Shown: one piece after another, positions 1 through 33,973 of the stretch
How positions within the stretch are numbered: the stretch's first letter is position 1
Layout of the letters: every line of letters begins with the position of its first letter
DNA from: Deltaproteobacteria bacterium
GTDB lineage: Bacteria; Desulfobacterota; Desulfuromonadia; Desulfuromonadales; BM103
Length of the DNA stretch: 64,000 nucleotides
Assembly (NCBI GenBank): GCA_024279915.1
Contig: JAJRRB010000085.1
Span: 1 to 64,000, forward strand
Direction: 5' to 3'
Made by a program: the position numbers and the translations under genes
Notes under the pieces: generated by a model
Told to the model about the DNA's origin: nothing
Database searches by the model: none
Seen by the model: only the letters and a program-made list of their open reading frames with translations

Positions 1-17
1 ATCAAACCCTTCTTATT

Positions 18-118
18 TAGTCGCGGTCAGGATCTGTGAACATCTGTAAGGATCAAAAGCTTCAGGCTCTTGGGTTTGCTTTGAACAACAGACCTTGACA
101 GATTTTCACCGCGGCCAA
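18..118. repeat. ~95 bp palindromic repeat, copy A
   Basis: First of seven copies of a dispersed element whose ends are inverted GCCGCGGT words (here the left one is degenerate, TCGCGGT). Inside each arm are units about 10 bases long ending in TCTGT, so the arms are iterated as well as inverted. The right arm reads ACAGATTTTCACCGCGGC. Other copies are at 299-395, 26811-26907, 26988-27083, 27523-27620, 27714-27808 and 27902-27997. Confidence 0.85.
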
Positions 119-24199: not shown

Positions 24200-25522
24200 T
24201 TATCGGATGATACGAAAGACATTAAAAGATTTGAGCTTCATCTTAAACATAAAATGTGTTTCACTTTGAATCATGTCGTAAAACATACCTGAGATGGCAT
24301 AAGAACCGACTGTCGCCCACGCAGCCCCGACAACACCATACTTCGGAATAAGCATAAGATTTAAGACAACATTGAAAATGGCCCCAAGTGCAGTACGCTG
24401 CAGAGTCAAAATCTGGCGATTCTCGATTAGAAACCACTTCCCGCTTGCAACACCCAGGAACACAAAGACTGATGCCCAGACATGTATAGCAAGTACCGTC
24501 CCCGCCTGCTGATAGACACCCCCAAAGAGCAACACAACGACCCTGTCTGACAAAAAAGTCAGCGGGATGGCAACTGCAACAGACAACCCCACCATAAGAT
24601 CGTATAACTGTTGCAGACGTCGATAATAATGTTCCTCAGACTGTTTTTTTGCTTCAAGAATCGCAGGGAAAACCGAGGCTACAATCGCCATGGGAATGAA
24701 GTACCACACCTCACTGATGCGAACCGCTACGCTATAAACTCCAACTGCCTCATCACCCACCATTTGACCAAGCATAACCTGGTCGATTTTCATGTATATG
24801 GCAATCGCGATACCTGAAAGGATGAGTGGCCAACTGTCTCGCAATAAACCGATAGCTCTGTGTAAACTCACACGCACTCCTCGCAGTCCGGGACCTCGCC
24901 ACACAAAAACAAAAAGCATGGCAATTGCTATCACAGCTGTTTCCGCTAACATGACCCATACAAACGAGATGAGGGGAGATTGCTGCAAAATCAATGCAAT
25001 CTTGATAATCACCATAATAATGAATACGGTATTGGTGACCCACACGGTGTATTTGGACTGAACTTTTGCCTCAAACCAGTAATTGGTAAAGGCGGTCACC
25101 TTGAAGATCATGGCCACACCAAGGATCACAACTATTAATCTAACAAGAGCGTCATCCGGTCTGAGAAAATGGATAACCGTTACTGCTAATCCAAAGGCGG
25201 TAACTCCACCAACAAGCTGCAGCGCAGCGGCAGTGCCCATTGTTTCGTTCGCTCTTTCTGGATCGACCACAAGATCGCGAACAACAATATTTTGGAGGCC
25301 TAGCATGGAAAGCGTGCCGAACAGCCCGACAAATGCAGTTGCGAAACTGAACAAACCAAACTGTTCCGGACCTAGGTAGCGTGCCAGCCACACACCAACG
25401 AATAAGCCCACACCCATCCGCAACAATCTGTCAAAAAAAAGCCAACCGATGTTATCAACAATCTTGAACAGATTGGGTCGGTGTTCGATCCGGCGACGAA
25501 GAAAAAGCGGAAGGATATTCAC
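24200..25522 (-). CDS. Wzx-type oligosaccharide flippase
   Basis: A 440-residue polytopic protein of the polysaccharide transporter branch of the MOP superfamily. The N terminus (IVDNIGWLFFDRLLRMGVGL, then WLARYLGPEQFGLFSFA) is the classical start of bacterial flippases in this group, and about 12 hydrophobic segments follow. It would move undecaprenyl-linked repeat units across the inner membrane for polymerisation by the EpsG-like protein. It is the first gene left of the accessory patch at 25.6-28.0 kb, and its upstream flank holds a heptanucleotide repeat and a decayed epimerase end. Confidence 0.9.
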   Translation of the reverse strand: MNILPLFLRRRIEHRPNLFKIVDNIGWLFFDRLLRMGVGLFVGVWLARYLGPEQFGLFSFATAFVGLFGTLSMLGLQNIVVRDLVVDPERANETMGTAAALQLVGGVTAFGLAVTVIHFLRPDDALVRLIVVILGVAMIFKVTAFTNYWFEAKVQSKYTVWVTNTVFIIMVIIKIALILQQSPLISFVWVMLAETAVIAIAMLFVFVWRGPGLRGVRVSLHRAIGLLRDSWPLILSGIAIAIYMKIDQVMLGQMVGDEAVGVYSVAVRISEVWYFIPMAIVASVFPAILEAKKQSEEHYYRRLQQLYDLMVGLSVAVAIPLTFLSDRVVVLLFGGVYQQAGTVLAIHVWASVFVFLGVASGKWFLIENRQILTLQRTALGAIFNVVLNLMLIPKYGVVGAAWATVGSYAISGMFYDMIQSETHFMFKMKLKSFNVFRIIR

Positions 25523-25602: not shown

Positions 25603-25609
25603 GAAAACC

Positions 25610-25730
25610 TCAATCCTCGTTCTTTAAGTATTCGTCGAAATATTCAATGGTTTTACTCAAACCATCTCTCAATACAACTGTCGGCTCCCAACCCAGAATA
25701 TCTCTGAATACCATTGGGTCGGACCACACA
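25610..25730 (-). pseudogene. C-terminal remnant of a second NAD-dependent sugar epimerase/decarboxylase
   Basis: Minus-strand translation gives RDILGWEPTVVLRDGLSKTI followed by EYFDEYLKNED and a stop at 25610-25612. This matches the end of the intact UDP-glucuronate decarboxylase at 28021 ([20 protein letters not shown]). By eye, nucleotide agreement is only about three in four bases, so it is an old or separately acquired paralogue, not a fresh duplication. About 37 residues survive; no start or Rossmann domain remains. It marks the left edge of the accessory patch. Confidence 0.8.
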
Positions 25731-25737
25731 ACTCCCT

Positions 25738-25817
25738 GTTATCACATCGCTTTTCCAAAATAAACCGTCAAAAACACCCTTAAAAGCCCCATTTTTATGG
25801 CAAAATGACATCGTAAC
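25738..25817. repeat. ~80 bp repeat P, copy 1, directly after hepT
   Basis: An element running from GTTATCACATCG to GACATCGTAAC, with partly inverted ends (GTTA and TAAC). Copy 2, in the same orientation, is at 26576-26654. Both contain ACACCCTTAAAA-like or GCACCCTTAAAC middles. On the minus strand each begins with codons reading YDVILP then stop. Copy 1 starts within ten bases of the hepT stop codon. Confidence 0.75.
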
Positions 25818-25824
25818 GCCAGGC

Positions 25825-26241
25825 TCATATCTCAAGAGCGCCAATATCCCTACGGAAGCGGTCAAAAATCTCTACAGCTCGTTGATGCAAAGGCTCCATG
25901 CGTTCGGGAAAAAGATCTAGTGCGTACGCATGACTAAAGAAGTGGCGAAACGCAAGGTAGCGGCTGAGTTCGTCAACCAGAGCCGCAGAAAGAATGTTCG
26001 CATCTCCGGCAGTCAACAATAGATCTCGATGCCAGGAAGAGCCTGACGGAATATCAATTTGTTGAGCCCTGCACACCTGCTTCAGAATATTTTCCAAGCC
26101 ATTGTAAAAGTTGTGCAACAACGCTGCAACGCCAGCCAATTCCAACTTTGTAAGTTCGGCAAGAGGAGTTGATGGAAGTGAGGACAAGGTACGTTCAATT
26201 GCTTCGTACTCGGCTTCAACACGCAAGCGATAATCAACCAT
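25825..26241 (-). CDS. hepT: HepT-like HEPN ribonuclease toxin
   Basis: A 138-residue all-helical HEPN protein. The HepT signature R-x4-H-x-Y is present as RHFFSHAY (R99, H104, Y106). In characterised pairs HepT is an RNase toxin, and MntA neutralises it by adding AMP to the tyrosine of this motif. The start at 26241 is preferred over the longer open frame because it follows AGGAAGGAG and overlaps the mntA stop by eight bases, giving the usual antitoxin-first order. The pair is bracketed by two copies of repeat P. Confidence 0.88.
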   Translation of the reverse strand: MVDYRLRVEAEYEAIERTLSSLPSTPLAELTKLELAGVAALLHNFYNGLENILKQVCRAQQIDIPSGSSWHRDLLLTAGDANILSAALVDELSRYLAFRHFFSHAYALDLFPERMEPLHQRAVEIFDRFRRDIGALEI

Positions 26242-26503
26242 GGAGCGGTACTCCTTCCTGCAAAACCATTTCAGCAAATTTTGTTTTTTTTGACAGATCA
26301 ATCACATCAACCGGCTTGTAAAGTGCGCACATCAAATCCCCATAGAAGGCAAAGTAGTCTTTATCAGCAATACCTTCAATTGCAATATCGATGTCTCTGC
26401 TTTCTACGTTTTCGGAGATAGAAGACCCGAACAACAGCACCCGAGACACACGATATTTACGTGCGATCTCCTGAATTACCACTCTGTCTTTTTCAGAAAT
26501 CAT
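26234..26503 (-). CDS. mntA: MntA-like minimal nucleotidyltransferase antitoxin
   Basis: An 89-residue minimal polymerase-beta-fold nucleotidyltransferase. The catalytic pattern is FGSSISENVESRDIDIAI: glycine-serine at residues 26-27, nine residues, then D37-x-D39, with a likely third carboxylate in VDVIDL (D66/D69). The usual spacing is ten residues between GS and the first Asp, so this is one short. MntA enzymes AMPylate and silence HepT. ATG at 26503 has GGAGGAG upstream; the frame is open seven codons further. Confidence 0.88.
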   Translation of the reverse strand: MISEKDRVVIQEIARKYRVSRVLLFGSSISENVESRDIDIAIEGIADKDYFAFYGDLMCALYKPVDVIDLSKKTKFAEMVLQEGVPLHG

Positions 26504-26575
26504 GATAGTTCTCCTCCAAAACAAAAACCAAGGACTTTAATAATTTAATAAGGGTTAGGACCAAGCCAACCACCT

Positions 26576-26654
26576 GTTATCACTTCGTTTTATCTATTTG
26601 CCAGCCGTAAAGCACCCTTAAACACTCCATTTTACGGTAAAATGACATCGTAAC
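26576..26654. repeat. ~80 bp repeat P, copy 2, upstream of mntA
   Basis: Same orientation and layout as 25738-25817, with GTTATCACTTCG at one end and GACATCGTAAC at the other. Its minus-strand beginning supplies the last codons and the stop of the small ORF at 26632-26751. Confidence 0.75.
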
Positions 26655-26751
26655 AGGTTTCCTCTTCCCGCAATGACTCCTGACCTTCGAGAACCAGATC
26701 AAACTTGCTATCCATGTTTTCCAAAAGCATCTCCAGATACTCCTTTTCCAT
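26632..26751 (-). CDS. small ORF, probably truncated by repeat P
   Basis: A 39-codon ORF starting MEKEYLEMLLENMDSKFDLV, with a strong AGGAGGGA ribosome binding site and ATG at 26751. The residues look like the start of a charged coiled-coil protein. The reading frame enters repeat P and stops at the sixth codon inside it (YDVILP, stop). The natural gene was probably longer and lost its end when the repeat arrived. It lies just upstream of mntA-hepT. Function unknown. Confidence 0.5.
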   Translation of the reverse strand: MEKEYLEMLLENMDSKFDLVLEGQESLREEETCYDVILP

Positions 26752-26810
26752 ACGTTCCCTCCTAAGCAAAACATTAAATACAAAACAACAAAAGATCAAA
26801 ACCCTCTTTT

Positions 26811-26907
26811 GCCGCGGCCAGAATCTGTGAACATCTGCGGAGTCAAAAACTATAGGCTCTTGAGTTTGCTTTAAACAACAGACCTTGACAGACTTTCACC
26901 GCGGCTA
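26811..26907. repeat. ~95 bp palindromic repeat, copy C
   Basis: Same family as 18-118: GCCGCGGCCAGAATCTGTGA at one end and CAGACTTTCACCGCGGC at the other. It begins the five-copy array around the GxxExxY gene. The linker to copy D ends TACCAAGCGAAGCATTAAAC then CTGCAAACC, shared with the other linkers. Confidence 0.88.
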
Positions 26908-26987
26908 ATTTTGCCTTTAGTGCCAGGATCAGGATATCAGCCTTGACACTTACCAAGCGAAGCATTAAACCTGCAAACCTTCTTTTA

Positions 26988-27083
26988 GCCGCGGTCAGAA
27001 TCTGTGAACATCTGTAAAGGCAAAACTACAGGCTTTTGGGTTAGGGTCTAACCACAGACCTTGACAGATTTTCACCGCGGCTA
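26988..27083. repeat. ~95 bp palindromic repeat, copy D
   Basis: Starts GCCGCGGTCAGAATCTGTGA and ends ACAGATTTTCACCGCGGC. It ends nine bases before the stop codon of the GxxExxY gene, in the same orientation as all other array copies. Confidence 0.9.
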
Positions 27084-27091
27084 ATCTGCCT

Positions 27092-27475
27092 TTAAATGCC
27101 GTTTGCTACACGCCTGACTTTAACCTTCTCTTCACCAAAGTTAATAACAAGACCGAGCTTCTTACCAGTAGCCTTCAGATAATTCTGACATTGAGCAAAG
27201 TGAATGTTTTCTATCGCCTTGACCGCTTTCAATTCGACAACAATCTCGTCTTCAACAATCATGTCCGCATAATAATCACCGACAATCTGTCCCTCATAAT
27301 GGACTTTAATCATTTTTTGAGTCTCAATGTTTAAACCTGCAGCTGTCAACTCTATGTTCAATGAGTTTTCATAAACTTTCTCAAGGAAACCACAACCAAG
27401 AGTTCTGCTAACCTTGTATGCACAGCTCACAATTGAATCAACCAAAGCGTCATAATACGCTTTATCTCTCACCAT
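27092..27475 (-). CDS. GxxExxY family protein (PD-(D/E)XK-like fold)
   Basis: A 127-residue protein with the name-giving motif GFLEKVYENSL near residue 29. The rest reads DYYADMIVEDEIVVELKAVK, an acidic-strand pattern like the D...ExK core of PD-(D/E)XK nucleases, then FAQCQNYLKATGKKLGLVIN. Family members are frequent, often several per genome, and their function is unknown. ATG at 27475 is preceded by AGGAGGGG. Direct copies of a ~95 bp palindromic repeat lie 9 bases past its stop and about 48 bases before its start, so the gene is bracketed like a cassette. Confidence 0.88.
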   Translation of the reverse strand: MVRDKAYYDALVDSIVSCAYKVSRTLGCGFLEKVYENSLNIELTAAGLNIETQKMIKVHYEGQIVGDYYADMIVEDEIVVELKAVKAIENIHFAQCQNYLKATGKKLGLVINFGEEKVKVRRVANGI

Positions 27476-27522
27476 CGTCCCCTCCTAAAAAATCAAATTA
27501 TAAAATCAAAAACCACTATTTA

Positions 27523-27620
27523 GCCGCGGTTAGAATCTGTGAAAATCTGCAGGATCAAAAGCTCTAAACCTGTATTCTTTTTGGTTTAAACAACAGACCT
27601 TGACAGACTTTCACCGCGGC
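27523..27620. repeat. ~95 bp palindromic repeat, copy E
   Basis: Starts GCCGCGGTTAGAATCTGTGA and ends CAGACTTTCACCGCGGC, just upstream of the GxxExxY gene. The start-to-start distance to copy F is 191 bases. Confidence 0.88.
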
Positions 27621-27713
27621 TAACATTGCTTTTAAAAGAAAAACTGCCAGGGTCAGGCTTCCTACCTTGACACTTACCAAGCATAACCTTAAACCTGCAA
27701 ACCTTTTTATTTA

Positions 27714-27808
27714 GCCGCGGTCAGAATCTGTGAAAGTCTGCAGGATCAAAGGCTATGGGCTCTTGGGTTTGGGGCTAACCGCAGACCTTGACAGATTTTC
27801 AGCGCGGC
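27714..27808. repeat. ~95 bp palindromic repeat, copy F
   Basis: Starts GCCGCGGTCAGAATCTGTGA and ends ACAGATTTTCAGCGCGGC. Start-to-start distance to copy G is 188 bases. The linkers E-F and F-G are nearly identical (both contain CTGCCAGGGTCAGGCTTCCT). Confidence 0.88.
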
Positions 27809-27901
27809 TAACAATGCTTTTAAAAGAAAAACTGCCAGGGTCAGGCTTCCTACCTTGACACTTACCAAGCATAACCTTAAACCTGCAAACCTTTTTATTT
27901 A

Positions 27902-27997
27902 GCCGCGGTCAGAATCTGTGAAAATCTGTAAAGGCAAAACTACAGGCTTTTGGGTTAGGGTCTAACCGCAGACCTTGACAGATTTTCACCGCGGCCA
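27902..27997. repeat. ~95 bp palindromic repeat, copy G
   Basis: Cleanest copy: GCCGCGGTCAGAATCTGTGA at the left and ACAGATTTTCACCGCGGCC at the right, with a central inverted GGTTAGGGTCTAACC. It ends 23 bases before the stop codon of the UDP-glucuronate decarboxylase gene. No coding signal is seen between 27476 and 28020. Confidence 0.9.
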
Positions 27998-28020
27998 ATC
28001 TGCCCTTAAGCATCTAAACC

Positions 28021-28983
28021 TCAATCATCCTTTTTCAGATACTCATCAAAATAATCAATGGTCTTGGTCAGACCATCCCGCAACACAATCGACGGTTCCC
28101 AACCCAACGTTTCTTTTGCAAAAGAGATATCCGGCTGTCTTTGTTTCGGATCGTCACTCGGCAACGGCTTGTAAATCAGTTCCGACCCGGAACCAACCAT
28201 CTCAATAACAATCTCAGCGAGTTGTTTGATGGTGAACTCGACCGGGTTGCCAAGATTCATGGGGCCAGTAACCTCATCACCTGTAGTCATCAGCCGTACA
28301 AAACCTTCGATAAGATCGTCGCAATAACAGAAAGAACGAGTCTGGGAACCATCACCATAGATGGTGATATCTTCACCGCGCAACGCCTGAACCACAAAGT
28401 TGGAAACCACACGGCCATCGTTTACGTGCATACGCGGCCCGTAGGTGTTGAAGATGCGTGCCACCTTGATACGCACTCCATTCTGACGATGATAGTCGAA
28501 AAAAAGCGTTTCGGCACAGCGTTTACCCTCGTCATAGCATGAGCGGATACCGATCGGGTTGACGTTGCCCCAATAGTCTTCCTTCTGCGGATGCACGGTT
28601 GGATCACCATAGACCTCACTGGTTGAGGCTTGAAAGACTTTCGCTTTGGTGCGCTTGGCCAGGCCAAGAACATTGATGGCACCGTGCACGCTGACCTTGG
28701 TCGTCTGCACCGGGTCATACTGGTAGTGAATTGGCGCTGCGGGGCAAGCCAGATTGTAGATCTCGTCGACTTCGACGTAGAGAGGAAAAGTGATATCGTG
28801 GCGCATCACTTCGAAGTTGGGGTTGTGGAGCAGGTGGGCAATGTTAGCTCGCCTCCCTGTGAAATAATTGTCGACACAAAGAACATCGTGACCATCGTTT
28901 AATAACCGTTCGCAGAGATGGGAGCCAAGAAATCCTGCTCCTCCGGTTACCAATACTCTTTTTATGCTGTCATAATGGCGCAT
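28021..28983 (-). CDS. uxs: UDP-glucuronate decarboxylase (UDP-xylose synthase)
   Basis: A 320-residue short-chain dehydrogenase that converts UDP-glucuronate to UDP-xylose using bound NAD. The N-terminal NAD loop is [19 protein letters not shown]. The family-typical stretch [20 protein letters not shown] follows, and the catalytic Y-x3-K is in [11 protein letters not shown] with TSEVYGDP before it. [11 protein letters not shown] and [17 protein letters not shown] complete the match to the UXS group. It supplies a pentose donor for the locus. A decayed paralogue end lies at 25610-25730. ATG at 28983. Confidence 0.93.
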
Positions 28984-29035: not shown

Positions 29036-29071
29036 CATCAATGGTTAGCCCGTGTGGGCTAACCATTGATG
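29036..29071 (-). terminator. perfect 16 bp hairpin over the stop codon of the second tyrosine kinase gene
   Basis: CATCAATGGTTAGCCC and its exact reverse complement flank a four-base GTGT loop. The stem includes the TAG stop codon of the gene at 29059-31407. There is no following U tract, so it may protect the mRNA end or attenuate transcription rather than act as a standard intrinsic terminator. Confidence 0.55.
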
Positions 29072-31407
29072 GATCCCCAAATCTTCGCAATCACCCTCCT
29101 GAACAGAGAAGGTTTAGGCCCATCAGTGGCGCGGCGATAATACCCTTGATAATACTTGCTGTTGTAATAGCTGTAACCACCATAGAATTTAGCGCCTTTG
29201 CCGGTTTTGTCGTTAAGAACAACGCCGGCGATGGTAGCTTCGTGATTATTCAAGAGCTTGATGGCCTGTTTGGCAAGGCGTTCAGGGACACGACAGGGCT
29301 CAATAATCAGCACATTGAGATCAACCCAGGGCGAAAGGATCAGGGCATCGGCAACCGGCAAGAGTGGTGGGACATCGAGGAAGACATAGTCATACTTCTC
29401 TCGAACGGTCTCAAGAAAGTTCTGCATCGATTTGGAACCAAGTAATTGGGTCGGGTTAGGTGGCTCTGTCCCGGCCGGGATGAAATCGAGGTTCAGTTTA
29501 GTGATATGTCGTAAGGCACCCTTACCACCGTGGACAAGCAAGTCTGTGAGTCCTGGGGTTTCTTTCTGGTCAAGAGCCGCAGAAAGAGAAGGACGACGCA
29601 AATCACAGCCGACCAGCAAGACTTTCGCACCAGTCTGTGCCATGGTGGCGGCCAGATTGACGGCAACAGTCGACTTCCCTTCGTCGGCCAGACAACTTGT
29701 GAGCATAATTGTTTTGTGTTTCTGGTTAGTGACAATAAAACGCAGGTTGGTGCGCATGGCAAGGAAAGCTGCGGCGGGGATGGAGTGTGGCGCCAGATGA
29801 GTCACAAGTTGCCCCTGCTCACTGCTGACTGCCGATTCGATGCGCGGTATAGAGCCAATCACAACCTGATTTAGATGCTCTTGGACATCATCCTCATCCT
29901 TGATGGTCTGATCGAAATAATCGATGAGGAAGGTCATGCCAACGCCGAGGAGTAAACCAAGCAGCAGCCCCATGCCGAGATTTTTCTTTTTGTTCGGCTT
30001 GACCGGTGAGAGTGGCAACTGAGCCTGGTTAATGATTTCAACGTTACTGGTAATCGATGCCTGCGCGATACGCTCCTCTTGTTGCCGTTGCAGAAGATAG
30101 CTGTAGAGTTCGGCGTTGACGGCACTGGAACGACTTAACCTGGCCAGCTCCAACTCCTCTTCAGGGACCTGTTCAAGACGCTTGGCATTAGCTGCCAACT
30201 CCTGGTCAATCGCTGCGATTTCCGCGTCGAGACCGTTGATAGCAAGTCGGGCAGAAGCCATGATTTCCTGGCGTAGCAGACTGATCTTGTCGTTGACCTC
30301 TCCGACATCGGGATGGGAAGGCGTATATTCACGCAACAGGTCGTTACGAATGCTGCGAAGCTCCCACAGACGGCTCAACAGCTCCTGCACCCCGGGCAAA
30401 GAATCCACGACAGACGACTCGTAGCTACTGAATCCCGGGTTGCCAAGAAAGCCCTCGATGCGCTGTTGCTTCTGCAAAAGTCCGGCGCGCTGCTTTTCAA
30501 GAGCCACTGCAACATCGATCATACTGGACCCTTCCGGGCTTAGCCTTTGCAGACCAGTGCTAATTCTGAATTTTTGCAGATTCTGCTCGGAGATATTCAG
30601 CTGACGACCTAAGGCAACTAACTGCTGGTCGATCAGTTCAAGGATGGTGTTTGCTTCCTTGACTTTGGCATCACGGGCCTGCTCCTGATAAGCGCGAGCT
30701 AGCGCATTGGCAACATCACGGGCCTGTTTCGGGTCTGTGCGTTGCACCGACAGACGAATCATGGAAATCTGGTCGCCCGTTGGGAAGACACTGACACCCT
30801 GGCTGACCATGTCGGTCGCTTCATCGAGGGTGAGCCGCACCAGTGGGTAAGTGGCCCCGAGAGCCACCTCTTGAAGGTCGACCAGGCCACTGACCTCCCC
30901 GTGCTTAAATGGAATGCCGCTTTGACCGGAAGCCAGGACAGCTCCTGATGGGGCAAAGAGGCGGAAGCTCTTCTCGTCAATAGCCTGCAACGTCAGAGAA
31001 GGGATATCAACCGGGACAACTAACCGGCGGATATGCAGTGCAGTGCTTTTAGCCGTTGCAGCAAGACGCCACTCCAGCTGCAAAAGCTTGGCAGCGCGTT
31101 CGGAGATAAGGCTTGACTGCAGTATATAAATTTCAGAATCAACGCTGAAATAGTATTCTTTTCTCTTTTCAAGGATTTTCTGGGAGGTGTCCGGTTGAAG
31201 GCTGACCCGCACCACTGCACTTGATTCGTAAACCGGAATTTCGAGAAAGGTTTTGACCGCTGTCACGCTAAAGACCACAACAAGAACCAGCAGTGCCACT
31301 CTCCAGCGGCGTTGAACGACACGCAGGTAGTCGAGGAGGTGAGTTTCTTTCTCGTTTTGCTCAGGCAGGTTGTATGGAGCTTGCTCAGACATGAAAAGTC
31401 TCGCCAT
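29059..31407 (-). CDS. Wzc-like polysaccharide co-polymerase/tyrosine autokinase, second copy
   Basis: A 782-residue inner membrane protein that would control chain length and export with the Wza-like protein. Order: N-terminal Wzz domain after a first membrane helix (about residues 33-53), periplasmic coiled coils, a second helix near residue 480, then a cytoplasmic BY-kinase domain. Walker A is TSCLADEGKSTVAVN near residue 570, where most BY-kinases have PGEGK; Walker A' is LLVGCDLRRPSL; Walker B is YDYVFLDVPPLLPV. The C-terminal tail carries the tyrosine cluster YGGYSYYNSKYYQGYYRR. Start ATG at 31407 or 31392. Paralogue of the next upstream gene. Confidence 0.93.
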   Translation of the reverse strand: MARLFMSEQAPYNLPEQNEKETHLLDYLRVVQRRWRVALLVLVVVFSVTAVKTFLEIPVYESSAVVRVSLQPDTSQKILEKRKEYYFSVDSEIYILQSSLISERAAKLLQLEWRLAATAKSTALHIRRLVVPVDIPSLTLQAIDEKSFRLFAPSGAVLASGQSGIPFKHGEVSGLVDLQEVALGATYPLVRLTLDEATDMVSQGVSVFPTGDQISMIRLSVQRTDPKQARDVANALARAYQEQARDAKVKEANTILELIDQQLVALGRQLNISEQNLQKFRISTGLQRLSPEGSSMIDVAVALEKQRAGLLQKQQRIEGFLGNPGFSSYESSVVDSLPGVQELLSRLWELRSIRNDLLREYTPSHPDVGEVNDKISLLRQEIMASARLAINGLDAEIAAIDQELAANAKRLEQVPEEELELARLSRSSAVNAELYSYLLQRQQEERIAQASITSNVEIINQAQLPLSPVKPNKKKNLGMGLLLGLLLGVGMTFLIDYFDQTIKDEDDVQEHLNQVVIGSIPRIESAVSSEQGQLVTHLAPHSIPAAAFLAMRTNLRFIVTNQKHKTIMLTSCLADEGKSTVAVNLAATMAQTGAKVLLVGCDLRRPSLSAALDQKETPGLTDLLVHGGKGALRHITKLNLDFIPAGTEPPNPTQLLGSKSMQNFLETVREKYDYVFLDVPPLLPVADALILSPWVDLNVLIIEPCRVPERLAKQAIKLLNNHEATIAGVVLNDKTGKGAKFYGGYSYYNSKYYQGYYRRATDGPKPSLFRRVIAKIWGSING

Positions 31408-31550: not shown

Positions 31551-33842
31551 TTACGAATTCAACTTCTCCCAGGCTTTTTTCACAGCACTTCCCAGCGCTC
31601 CATCCTGGAGTTCATCAATACTTTCTCCGTAGTAGCCGGCGAAATTCCGATTACCGTAGTAGCTGTAAGACCCGTAAAATTTGAAGCCCTGCCCGGTCTT
31701 GTCGTTGATGACAACCCCGGAGATCTTGGCACCAACATCCTGTAACGATTTCACCATCTGTCTAGCAGCTTTTTCCGGCACCCGGCAAGGTTCCAGAACC
31801 ACGAGGTTGATATCTGCAAGCGGTGCCAGTATTTCCGTGTCAGTCACCGGAAGAACCGGAGGGGCGTCAATCACGACATAGTCATAACGCTCCTTTGCCA
31901 TGTCGAGGAATTTGCGCATCCTTTGTGAATCCAGGATTTCGGCCGGATTGCTTGTCGCAGCTCCAGCCGGTAAAAAATCAAGGCGCGGATGCTGCAAAGA
32001 TCTGATAGCGGACTGGTTCTGGTCTCGTAACAGTTCAACAAGCCCGGGCTCATTGCTCTCGCGGAACACCTTATGCAACGATGGGCGGCGCAGGTCACAA
32101 CCGATCAGTAAGACTTTCGCTCCGGTCATACTGAGGACCACGCCAAGATTCGCCGAAATGGTTGATTTGCCTTCGCCAGGAAGACTACTGGTTACAAGTA
32201 TCGTTTTGTGTTTCTCCCGGCCGGTCACATAATGCAGTCGGGTACGAAGCGCGCGGAAAGCTTCCACAACGGGTGCTTTAGGCACCAGTACAGCAACCGG
32301 GAACTCACTGTTTTCTGCAAAATCCGGAATCATCGGGATGACCCCATAGATCGGAAGATTCAGCTTGCCGACAACCTCATCAATCGTTCTAAAGGTAGGG
32401 TCTAAGATGCTGAGAACAAACGCACAGCAAAGACCCAGGAACAAACCAGAAAGGCCACCCAGAGTCAGATTTTTTGTCATGTTCGGTTTGATCGGCAGTT
32501 TGGGACTGATTGCAGGATCGACAACTTTGACTTCATTGATTGCAGCCAATTGCGTCACGCGTATTTCTTGCTGTTTATCCAACAGGAAACCAAGCAGCTC
32601 CGTTTGCGATTTGCGGTCGCGAGTACGTCTGGCCAATTCTGCTTCGGGAACTTCGTTCATTTGCCCGTCTAAAACTGCAATTTTTTCTGCAAGTCTTGCA
32701 TCTTCAAGTGCAAGCTCTCTGCTTGCAGTTAAATAAAGAGCAAGCAGATCACGCTGGGCCAGTAGAATTCCTTCTGTCATTTCCTCAACTTCGGGATGTG
32801 CTTCAGTAAAATCAACCAGCAAGGCTCGTTTCTGGGACTCGAGAGTTGAGAGCCGGGTCGCCGCTTCATTTATCTGCGCAAAACCCTCAATACGAGGAGC
32901 AACGAAAAAAGCCTGATTCTTCATAGCCTGCTGCAGTCTTTCTGTAGCAAAACCAACCTGGCTGGCCTGCCAATCCAACCCGGTTTTTCTCTGCTCCAGT
33001 TGGGTCACCTTGCCCACCAGGCGCTCTCCCTGTGGGGCAAGTTCAGACAAACCGCTCTGTTGCCGATATTCACGGAGATCTTTCTCTGCGGCTTCCAGAC
33101 TTTTCTGAACTTCGACAATTTGCCGATCAACCTGCTCCAGAGATTCAATACTCTCCTGCTGAATCCTGGCTTGATAAATTTCAATCAGGGTATTGACCAC
33201 ATCACGGATATATTCAGGGTCTTCTCCATGCATGGAGATCTTGAGAATATTACTATTGCCTGGCAACGCGACGATCTCAAGGACAGACAACAATTTATCT
33301 ATGTGAGGGCTCACAGACTGGCGTTCAACAGTCAGAGACTGCCCTGCCAGACCACTATTGATATGCAATAAAAGAGTAACAGCTGCTGTTTCCAACATTT
33401 TACCGCTTTCACCTTCGGCAATAAAGCGGCCCGACAAATCGTAAACTGAGAAGTTTTTTTGATCAGTCAGCTTGATATGTAGCCCTGGCAATAAACCGGG
33501 CACGACAAACTGTTCAACGGTCACGTTGAGTTCAGGTGAGTATTCGGTGACTTGCCAGGCAAGATTCAAACGCTGGACAATCTGATCAGCCAGAGCACGG
33601 GAGCTCAGATACACCATCGCGTCTACTGATGAATGTTCCCTGGAGCCCGATCCTGAAGAAGGATTTAATTCGATCGTTGCTGTCGTTTCGAAAATTCGAG
33701 GTTGTATGAGTGTATAGACGAGTGTTGAGAAGAAGGTTAGCAGAAAAACCAGCAGTACGATTTTCCAGCGACGCCGTACAACATTAAAGAGGTTATGTGA
33801 ACCTGAGATTCCTAGAGAGACAGGGGTTATATTATTCTGCAT
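31551..33842 (-). CDS. Wzc-like polysaccharide co-polymerase/tyrosine autokinase, first copy
   Basis: About 763 residues with the same architecture as the downstream paralogue: first membrane helix near residue 25-45, Wzz and coiled-coil periplasmic region, second helix with a PIKPNMTKNLTLGGLSGLF-type junction, and BY-kinase domain. Walker A is canonical here (TSSLPGEGKSTISAN), Walker A' is LLIGCDLRRPSL, Walker B is YDYVVIDAPPVLPV, and the tail has YGSYSYYGNRNFAGYYGES. ATG at 33842 follows AGGACG; a GTG at 33857 is the alternative. It is separated from the Wza-like gene by about 130 bases. Confidence 0.93.
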   Translation of the reverse strand: MQNNITPVSLGISGSHNLFNVVRRRWKIVLLVFLLTFFSTLVYTLIQPRIFETTATIELNPSSGSGSREHSSVDAMVYLSSRALADQIVQRLNLAWQVTEYSPELNVTVEQFVVPGLLPGLHIKLTDQKNFSVYDLSGRFIAEGESGKMLETAAVTLLLHINSGLAGQSLTVERQSVSPHIDKLLSVLEIVALPGNSNILKISMHGEDPEYIRDVVNTLIEIYQARIQQESIESLEQVDRQIVEVQKSLEAAEKDLREYRQQSGLSELAPQGERLVGKVTQLEQRKTGLDWQASQVGFATERLQQAMKNQAFFVAPRIEGFAQINEAATRLSTLESQKRALLVDFTEAHPEVEEMTEGILLAQRDLLALYLTASRELALEDARLAEKIAVLDGQMNEVPEAELARRTRDRKSQTELLGFLLDKQQEIRVTQLAAINEVKVVDPAISPKLPIKPNMTKNLTLGGLSGLFLGLCCAFVLSILDPTFRTIDEVVGKLNLPIYGVIPMIPDFAENSEFPVAVLVPKAPVVEAFRALRTRLHYVTGREKHKTILVTSSLPGEGKSTISANLGVVLSMTGAKVLLIGCDLRRPSLHKVFRESNEPGLVELLRDQNQSAIRSLQHPRLDFLPAGAATSNPAEILDSQRMRKFLDMAKERYDYVVIDAPPVLPVTDTEILAPLADINLVVLEPCRVPEKAARQMVKSLQDVGAKISGVVINDKTGQGFKFYGSYSYYGNRNFAGYYGESIDELQDGALGSAVKKAWEKLNS

Positions 33843-33973
33843 AAGGTCGTCCTGCACTCAAGCTCAGCGCGTAAAGACAATGTAAAGAGACATAGTAGCC
33901 TTATAAACGAAGACCACTCGACCTATGTGGCCAAATGGTCTTCACAACGACATCATCAGTGATTGCACGTCTA

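Follow-up and report, generated by a model that had tools for sequence, protein, structure and literature searches.

Why should a small gene of unknown role, predicted to encode a nuclease, lie in the middle of an array of palindromic repeats, and is this arrangement a local accident or the visible part of a more general partnership between an enzyme and a class of repeats? The question was raised by a 64,000-nucleotide stretch of DNA (the window) from a Deltaproteobacteria bacterium of the order Desulfuromonadales (GCA_024279915.1, contig JAJRRB010000085.1, positions 1 to 64,000; C86 of the 99 contigs of a 3.83-Mb genome). An initial annotation, made from the sequence alone, had described five same-oriented copies of a palindrome of about 95 bp around a single GxxExxY gene, with two further copies near the start of the window, and had proposed a nuclease-linked repeat amplification unit or a cassette-like non-autonomous element. 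Below, G, C and L numbers denote the genomes (G000 being the genome of the window, the others related genomes), their contigs and the loci that were extracted. The relevant features of the window are:

16-118, plus strand: palindromic repeat copy A, 85% identical to copy D
295-399 (approximately), plus strand: palindromic repeat copy B, degenerate
26807-26908, plus strand: palindromic repeat copy C
26984-27084, plus strand: palindromic repeat copy D, 7 nt downstream of the stop codon of the gene
27092-27475, minus strand: intact GxxExxY / PDDEXK_3 gene, 127 aa, a predicted PD-(D/E)XK nuclease with E32, D71, E81-x-K83 and Q95-xxx-Y99
27519-27623, plus strand: palindromic repeat copy E, 43 nt upstream of the start of the gene
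27710-27811, plus strand: palindromic repeat copy F
27898-27998, plus strand: palindromic repeat copy G, 97% identical to copy D
27580-27928, plus strand: tandem duplication of palindrome plus linker (27580-27740 and 27768-27928, 161 nt each, 94% identical)

The arrangement that had been described is real. Copies C, E, F and G are 76–97% identical to D, the starts of E and F and of F and G are 191 and 188 nt apart, and the GCCGCGG ends and inner TCTGT units are present as annotated, although each copy measures about 101 bp rather than 95. The repeats are not a product of chance, since a 19-base inner word with up to 3 mismatches is found 10 times in the genome, of which 7 are in the seven window copies and 2 in copies on other contigs, the tenth being a 3-mismatch site on C5, whereas the reversed control pattern is found once. 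The genome holds about ten copies. Outside the window, two good copies occur between ilvH- and ilvD-like genes (C84:60113-60211) and between purD- and purH-like genes (C13:2648-2750), the gene names being read from the sequence, and weaker relatives are present on C33 and C51. The duplication in E-F-G indicates that this part of the array probably grew by tandem duplication. A search against Rfam gave no family in 26500-28100.

The surroundings of the array contain other repeated sequences. A polysaccharide-export type gene (24200-25522) lies next to it, and a HepT-like/nucleotidyltransferase gene pair (25825-26524) lies between two direct copies of another palindrome-like sequence (25778-25817 and 26615-26654, 78% identical). 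The 3' end of a sugar epimerase/decarboxylase-like gene (28021-28983) is repeated, with 77% identity over 91 nt, at 25605-25695 and 28016-28106, so that the block with the HepT and GxxExxY genes lies between two copies of that gene end. Further on, two neighbouring ORFs of 782 and 768 aa (29059-31407 and 31551-33857), which look like polysaccharide chain-length/tyrosine-kinase paralogues, share repeated stretches.

The protein belongs to the GxxExxY / PDDEXK_3 family (PF13366, TIGR04256), with profile matches well above the curated cut-offs (137.5 bits against 22 and 143.1 against 35), and PF13366 is its only Pfam match. G27, G29, E32, Y35, D71, E81, K83, Q95 and Y99 are invariant in an alignment of 14 diverse proteins, and all of these except G27 (90% or more) are also invariant in 35 proteins of the window's subtype. 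A sequence search of the PDB gave one weak match (E 0.022). The AF2 model (pLDDT 94.5, pTM 0.87) has as best Foldseek matches SSO0001, a Cas4 protein (E 5.9e-5), and lambda exonuclease (E 4.8e-4). In a second structural comparison SSO0001 gave Z 9.9 (rmsd 3.7, 101 residues aligned), followed by Wolbachia CidB and R.SwaI with Z 8.1, while Hjc had Z 7.6. The core fold, the D and ExK active-site residues and the QxxxY motif that marks the RecB/Cas4 branch are all present, and the protein is therefore a small predicted PD-(D/E)XK nuclease that is most like the Cas4/RecB branch.

The first indication that the association extends beyond the window came from the only other PF13366 match of the genome (C75:232594-232947, locus L002). 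This gene lies inside a different palindrome, with arms of AACGCAAAGACGCAAAG-type units at 1398-1453 and 1877-1932 of L002 that are 84% complementary, and a gene-less palindrome of the same type is found about 1.1 kb upstream. This suggested that each gene carries its own repeat type.

To establish how general the association is, the 250 nt preceding the profile match of each GxxExxY gene were aligned with the reverse complement of the 250 nt following the stop codon, and the same was done for pairs of stretches of the same geometry elsewhere in the same locus. In 118 related genomes, the own genome included, 72 had a match. Of 148 matches, 122 were tested; of the 26 others one is full length (G097:C40), two have in-frame stops (G002:C64, G059:C80) and the rest are partial. 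Of the 122 loci, 87 carry a strong bracketing inverted repeat (score 28 or more) and 97 beat every control of their locus, whereas 1.6% of 3,534 control pairs reach a score of 28. A second set consisted of named loci obtained by a protein-only scan, being the best 80 of 527 and sharing the window's subtype. Four of these had flanks that were too short; of the remaining 76, 59 score 28 or more and 56 beat every control, against 1.5% of 15,066 control pairs that reach 28. These 76 loci carry 29 phylum or title labels, of which 26 have at least one such case, archaea included. The two sets overlap by two genes, since L054 and L196, and likewise L055 and L170, appear to be the same gene, as judged from their arms and protein starts. 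Conversely, 35 of the 122 and 17 of the 76 loci lack a strong bracketing repeat. Some apparent exceptions were partly due to gene starts placed inside the arm: with the anchor at the profile match, L036 and L045 score 40 and 33, L035 and L047 27 and 26, and L052 21. The initial annotation had named in advance, as a result that would count against it, an absence of repeats near GxxExxY genes in relatives, and the outcome was the opposite.

ParE toxin genes (PF05016) of the same genomes served as a negative control and gave 0 of 29 at the gene itself; with the upstream anchor moved 300 nt to allow for an antitoxin gene, 2 of 28 score 28 or more and 7 of 28 beat their few controls. PF05635 (23S_rRNA_IVP, a four-helix-bundle protein), which had originally been chosen as a control, turned out to share the layout. 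Among 30 PF05635 loci of related genomes (L303-L332), 20 score 28 or more and 21 beat their controls, the genes lying between inverted arrays of another, GTGANN-like unit (GTGAGGAGTGAGG, CGTGAAACGTGAAA, GTGATTGGTGATT; period about 7). Since PF05635 is not known to be a nuclease family, this widens the phenomenon but weakens the idea that a nuclease is essential to it.

The arms consist of an outer TTARCC-like end and about three units of 7 nt with spacers of 1–3 nt, the units being for example CGCAGAT, CACAGAG, CGCAAAG, CACGAAG, CACCAAG and CACGGAA, while some subtypes, including that of the window, have units that fit this scheme less well (TCTGT, CAGGGAT, TCTGAT). In several genomes some arms end in a GCCCGTTCGCTTCGCTCACT-like stretch in place of the first unit (L254, L256, L167, L168, L212). 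Of the 146 loci with strong arms, the gene lies in the loop of one palindrome in 92, one flank holds a full palindrome in 37, and both flanks do so in 17, as in the window. When the two arms of a locus with CRCNGAT units are compared, the fixed letters hardly ever differ (C 2 of 106, C 2 of 105, G 1 of 106, A 1 of 106, T 2 of 105), whereas R (15 of 106), the free fourth position (28 of 106) and the spacers (41 of 163) do. Units were located in the upstream arm and the arms were then aligned, which favours matches overall but not the contrast between neighbouring positions. What is kept is a motif and not base pairing, so a hairpin as such is not the selected feature.

The unit type follows the protein and not the genome. 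On a tree of 141 typed proteins, unit type changes 26 times, against a mean of 68.4 (minimum 63) in 300 shuffles, and for the relatives alone (79 proteins) 21 times against 52.7 (minimum 46); for the named loci alone, where 57 of 62 are of one type, the test is uninformative (5 changes against 4.99). The types were defined after inspection of the arms, and 61 of 202 loci were left untyped. A type-free Mantel test on the 146 loci gave r 0.30 (0 of 500 permutations), and r 0.21 (0 of 500) for pairs under 50% identical, but for named pairs under 60% the value is weak (r 0.11, 22 of 500). Genes of one genome share a type in 1 of 28 pairs, whereas genes of different genomes do so in 122 of 225 pairs when the proteins are at least 55% identical, in 203 of 761 at 45–55%, and in 73 of 2,067 below 45%. 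The protein subtype of the window goes with CRCNGAT units in 54 of the 76 testable named loci, and within the window's own subclade the core is TCTGT in the window and TCTAT in the palindromes on both sides of the G001 gene (L225).

Gene-less copies are dispersed as well. Two-unit patterns were counted in the 118 relatives: CACCAAG pairs occur in 58 genomes (up to 115 in G045) and CACGGAA pairs in 22 (up to 41 in G098), while the reversed control pattern gives 0–2 in nearly all genomes, with exceptions such as 37 in G044, 12 in G065 and 6 in G082. Beyond the arms of the gene itself, the six genomes with the cognate gene (one, L215, assigned by eye) hold 9, 2, 111, 19, 85 and 18 CACCAAG pairs, against a median of 0 in 112 others, of which 25 have three or more (p 9.7e-5). 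For CACGGAA the five genomes with a cognate gene hold 6, 9, 21, 8 and 0 pairs, against a median of 0 in 113 others, of which 9 have three or more (p 7.1e-5). Genes outside the tested set could add to these genomes. The dependence is not strict, however. The window-type repeat is commonest in G007, with roughly twenty copies, yet the single GxxExxY match of that genome is of another subtype, and this is the main result against a strict dependence. G110 has 37 CACCAAG pairs but is not among the 72 genomes with a PF13366 match, and G098, G026 and G058 have 28–41 CACGGAA pairs although none of their tested genes is of the CRCNGAA type. Clusters surround the gene in G069 and G068, but a similar cluster without it exists in G087; in G087:C2 (L265) and G069:C1 (L266) CACGGAA palindromes are found at matching places of one gene cluster, and only G069 has the GxxExxY gene there. 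Copies thus persist, or spread, without a cognate gene in the assembly.

Comparison of orthologous sites shows that the palindromes differ between species. At ilvH-ilvD, of nine genus members compared, only the species of the window has the palindrome (240 nt between the genes); G001, G002 and G004 have 7 nt, G005 and G006 34 nt, G009 85 nt, and G003 and G008 145–153 nt with unrelated sequence. At purD-purH the species of the window has the window type, G007 the same type with the arms exchanged, G010 a TCTGAT type, G001-G003 CRCNGAG-like types and G009 yet another palindrome, the sequence of G006 being unreadable; palindromes of at least four types among the seven readable species (L274-L281) make this site look like an insertion hot spot. 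At meaB-epimerase six species have a GxxExxY gene with inverted unit arrays beside it, of different unit types (the gene of G002 having an in-frame stop), whereas G009 has 42 nt and no gene, which may be an empty or an emptied site. No target-site duplication or exact junction was seen at these sites, where the flanks are too diverged to place the junction.

The explanation that we favour is that the palindromes are REPIN-like mobile DNA and that the GxxExxY protein is their cognate enzyme, encoded in the loop of, or between copies of, the palindrome family on which it acts. In this view, a protein of the Cas4/RecB-like branch of PD-(D/E)XK nucleases would recognise the tandem units (in the window AATCTGTGAANATCTGT and the matching arm) and cut or nick the DNA there, perhaps when the palindrome is single-stranded or extruded, after which host replication and repair would copy the element, with or without the gene, to new intergenic sites, while local arrays such as E-F-G would arise by tandem duplication beside the gene. 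The association itself, the match of unit type to protein subtype, the differences in presence of palindromes between species and the conservation of the active-site residues are established by the analysis, whereas nuclease activity, binding, cutting and a causal role in movement are inferred. We consider it likely that the protein recognises its own arms, but the full reading, in which the nuclease also mobilises the palindromes, is about as likely as not. The interpretation given in the initial annotation is supported in part. A nuclease-linked repeat system agrees with the data, but about half of the copies in this genome lie away from the gene, several of them beside unrelated genes, which goes some way towards the competing expectation that the repeat is equally frequent next to unrelated genes, although dispersed non-autonomous copies would do this too. 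The suggestion that the inner units are spaced by one DNA turn is not general, since the spacing is about 10 in the window's subfamily but 8–9 in several others, and a cassette-like nature (integron-like cassettes were considered as well) is not shown, given the predominance of loci with the gene in the loop of one palindrome.

Of the alternatives, the one that survives best, although we regard it as unlikely, is that the arms are operators or processing sites rather than transposition ends, with the protein binding the tandem units in DNA or RNA and regulating its own gene and genes beside dispersed copies, while the palindromes spread by some other route and are kept for regulation. Paired sites of tandem 7-9-mers on opposite strands in Geobacter metallireducens were indeed taken for binding sites of unidentified global regulators (PMC2700814), conservation of the motif without base pairing fits protein binding of any kind, and PF05635 has the same layout. 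However, binding alone would not need the invariance of D71, E81, K83, Q95 and Y99, and solo copies sit beside unrelated genes and differ between species at the same site. Somewhat less probable is that another enzyme, such as a RAYT (Y1 transposase), moves the palindromes and that GxxExxY genes are passengers that happen to insert into or near them. The own genome has six Y1_Tnp matches, and some genomes have many palindromes and no cognate GxxExxY gene. Against this, of the five Y1 loci of the genome, four were examined, leaving out a fragmentary one: two are bracketed by palindromes that differ from the window type (L298, C73:17182-17544, CGCCGCTTGCGGCG; L299, C23:63460-63792, GGGGACACTTCC) and two have none, and the unit type follows GxxExxY subtype and not genome. 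That the nuclease guards against, or is neutralised by, the repeats, as a defence or addiction module with copies as tolerated decoys or self-marks, is the least likely reading, since in spite of the HepT-like/nucleotidyltransferase pair beside the window's gene and of ORFs among the repeats of L264 and L267 that by eye read like toxin-antitoxin genes, the window protein as query gave no match in 50,697 phage records and matches in only 8 of 72,556 plasmid records, thus no sign of a mobile defence gene, and the many repeats without the cognate gene in G007 would need explaining.

The finding gives a protein family of unknown function a possible job and a predicted target for each subfamily, and it provides a candidate partner for common intergenic repeats, some of which were earlier taken for sites of unidentified regulators. 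The match of unit type to protein type also makes recognition directly testable with short DNA duplexes. If the nuclease moves the repeats, this would be a second, independent invention of the REPIN/RAYT arrangement with an unrelated enzyme. A wider possibility, which remains tentative, is that of a widespread class of mobile palindromes in bacteria and archaea, each family served by a small cognate protein carried in its loop, with GxxExxY nucleases for one set and four-helix-bundle (PF05635) proteins for another, and with a subfamily-specific recognition code written as tandem short units. GxxExxY would then be a Cas4/RecB-type transposition enzyme, a role that is not known for that fold branch acting alone, and the code would give ready-made sequence-specific binders. 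In searches of openly licensed papers we found no report that links this family to palindromes: GxxExxY proteins are mentioned in passing, and passages on multicopy sequences of Geobacter and Pelobacter (PMC2700814, PMC2996986, PMC3543383) did not reveal such a link either.

Several known systems resemble the arrangement in part. Prokaryotic MITEs such as Chunjie of Geobacter uraniireducens (PMC10969869) are also short, gene-less, dispersed elements with inverted ends, but they are described with terminal inverted repeats and direct repeats, whereas no direct repeat was seen here and the linked gene matches no transposase family in Pfam. The intervening sequences of 23S rRNA that encode S23 (PF05635), for example in Coxiella (PMC4990558), likewise are short selfish elements that carry a small gene, and PF05635 genes in our set sit in palindromes of tandem units, but the unit is different and the two Pfam models are distinct. 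The paired predicted global regulator binding sites of G. metallireducens, classes 1–3, described by Aklujkar and colleagues (PMC2700814), consist of tandem 7-9-nt repeats, three to five per site, paired on opposite strands at variable distance, and the class 2 sequence TCTCCGTS reads as the complement of CRCNGAG-type units; they were taken for sites of IHF/HU or other regulators, and the passages concerned do not connect them to a nuclease gene. The closest working analogue is formed by the REPINs and their RAYTs (REP doublets and REP-associated tyrosine transposases), described by Bertels and Rainey (PMC3116915). In both cases one enzyme gene lies beside a cluster of its own palindrome type, several enzyme-repeat pairs of different type occur in one genome, gene-less doublets with two inverted palindromic arms are dispersed in intergenic space, and tandem clusters include flanking sequence. 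The GxxExxY system differs in that the linked gene encodes a predicted PD-(D/E)XK nuclease and lacks the Y1 (HUH) transposase domain of a RAYT, in that no RAYT of the same repeat type was found among the four Y1 loci examined, in that the arms are built from about three tandem 7-bp units with short spacers, and in that in 92 of 146 loci the gene is inside the palindrome loop.
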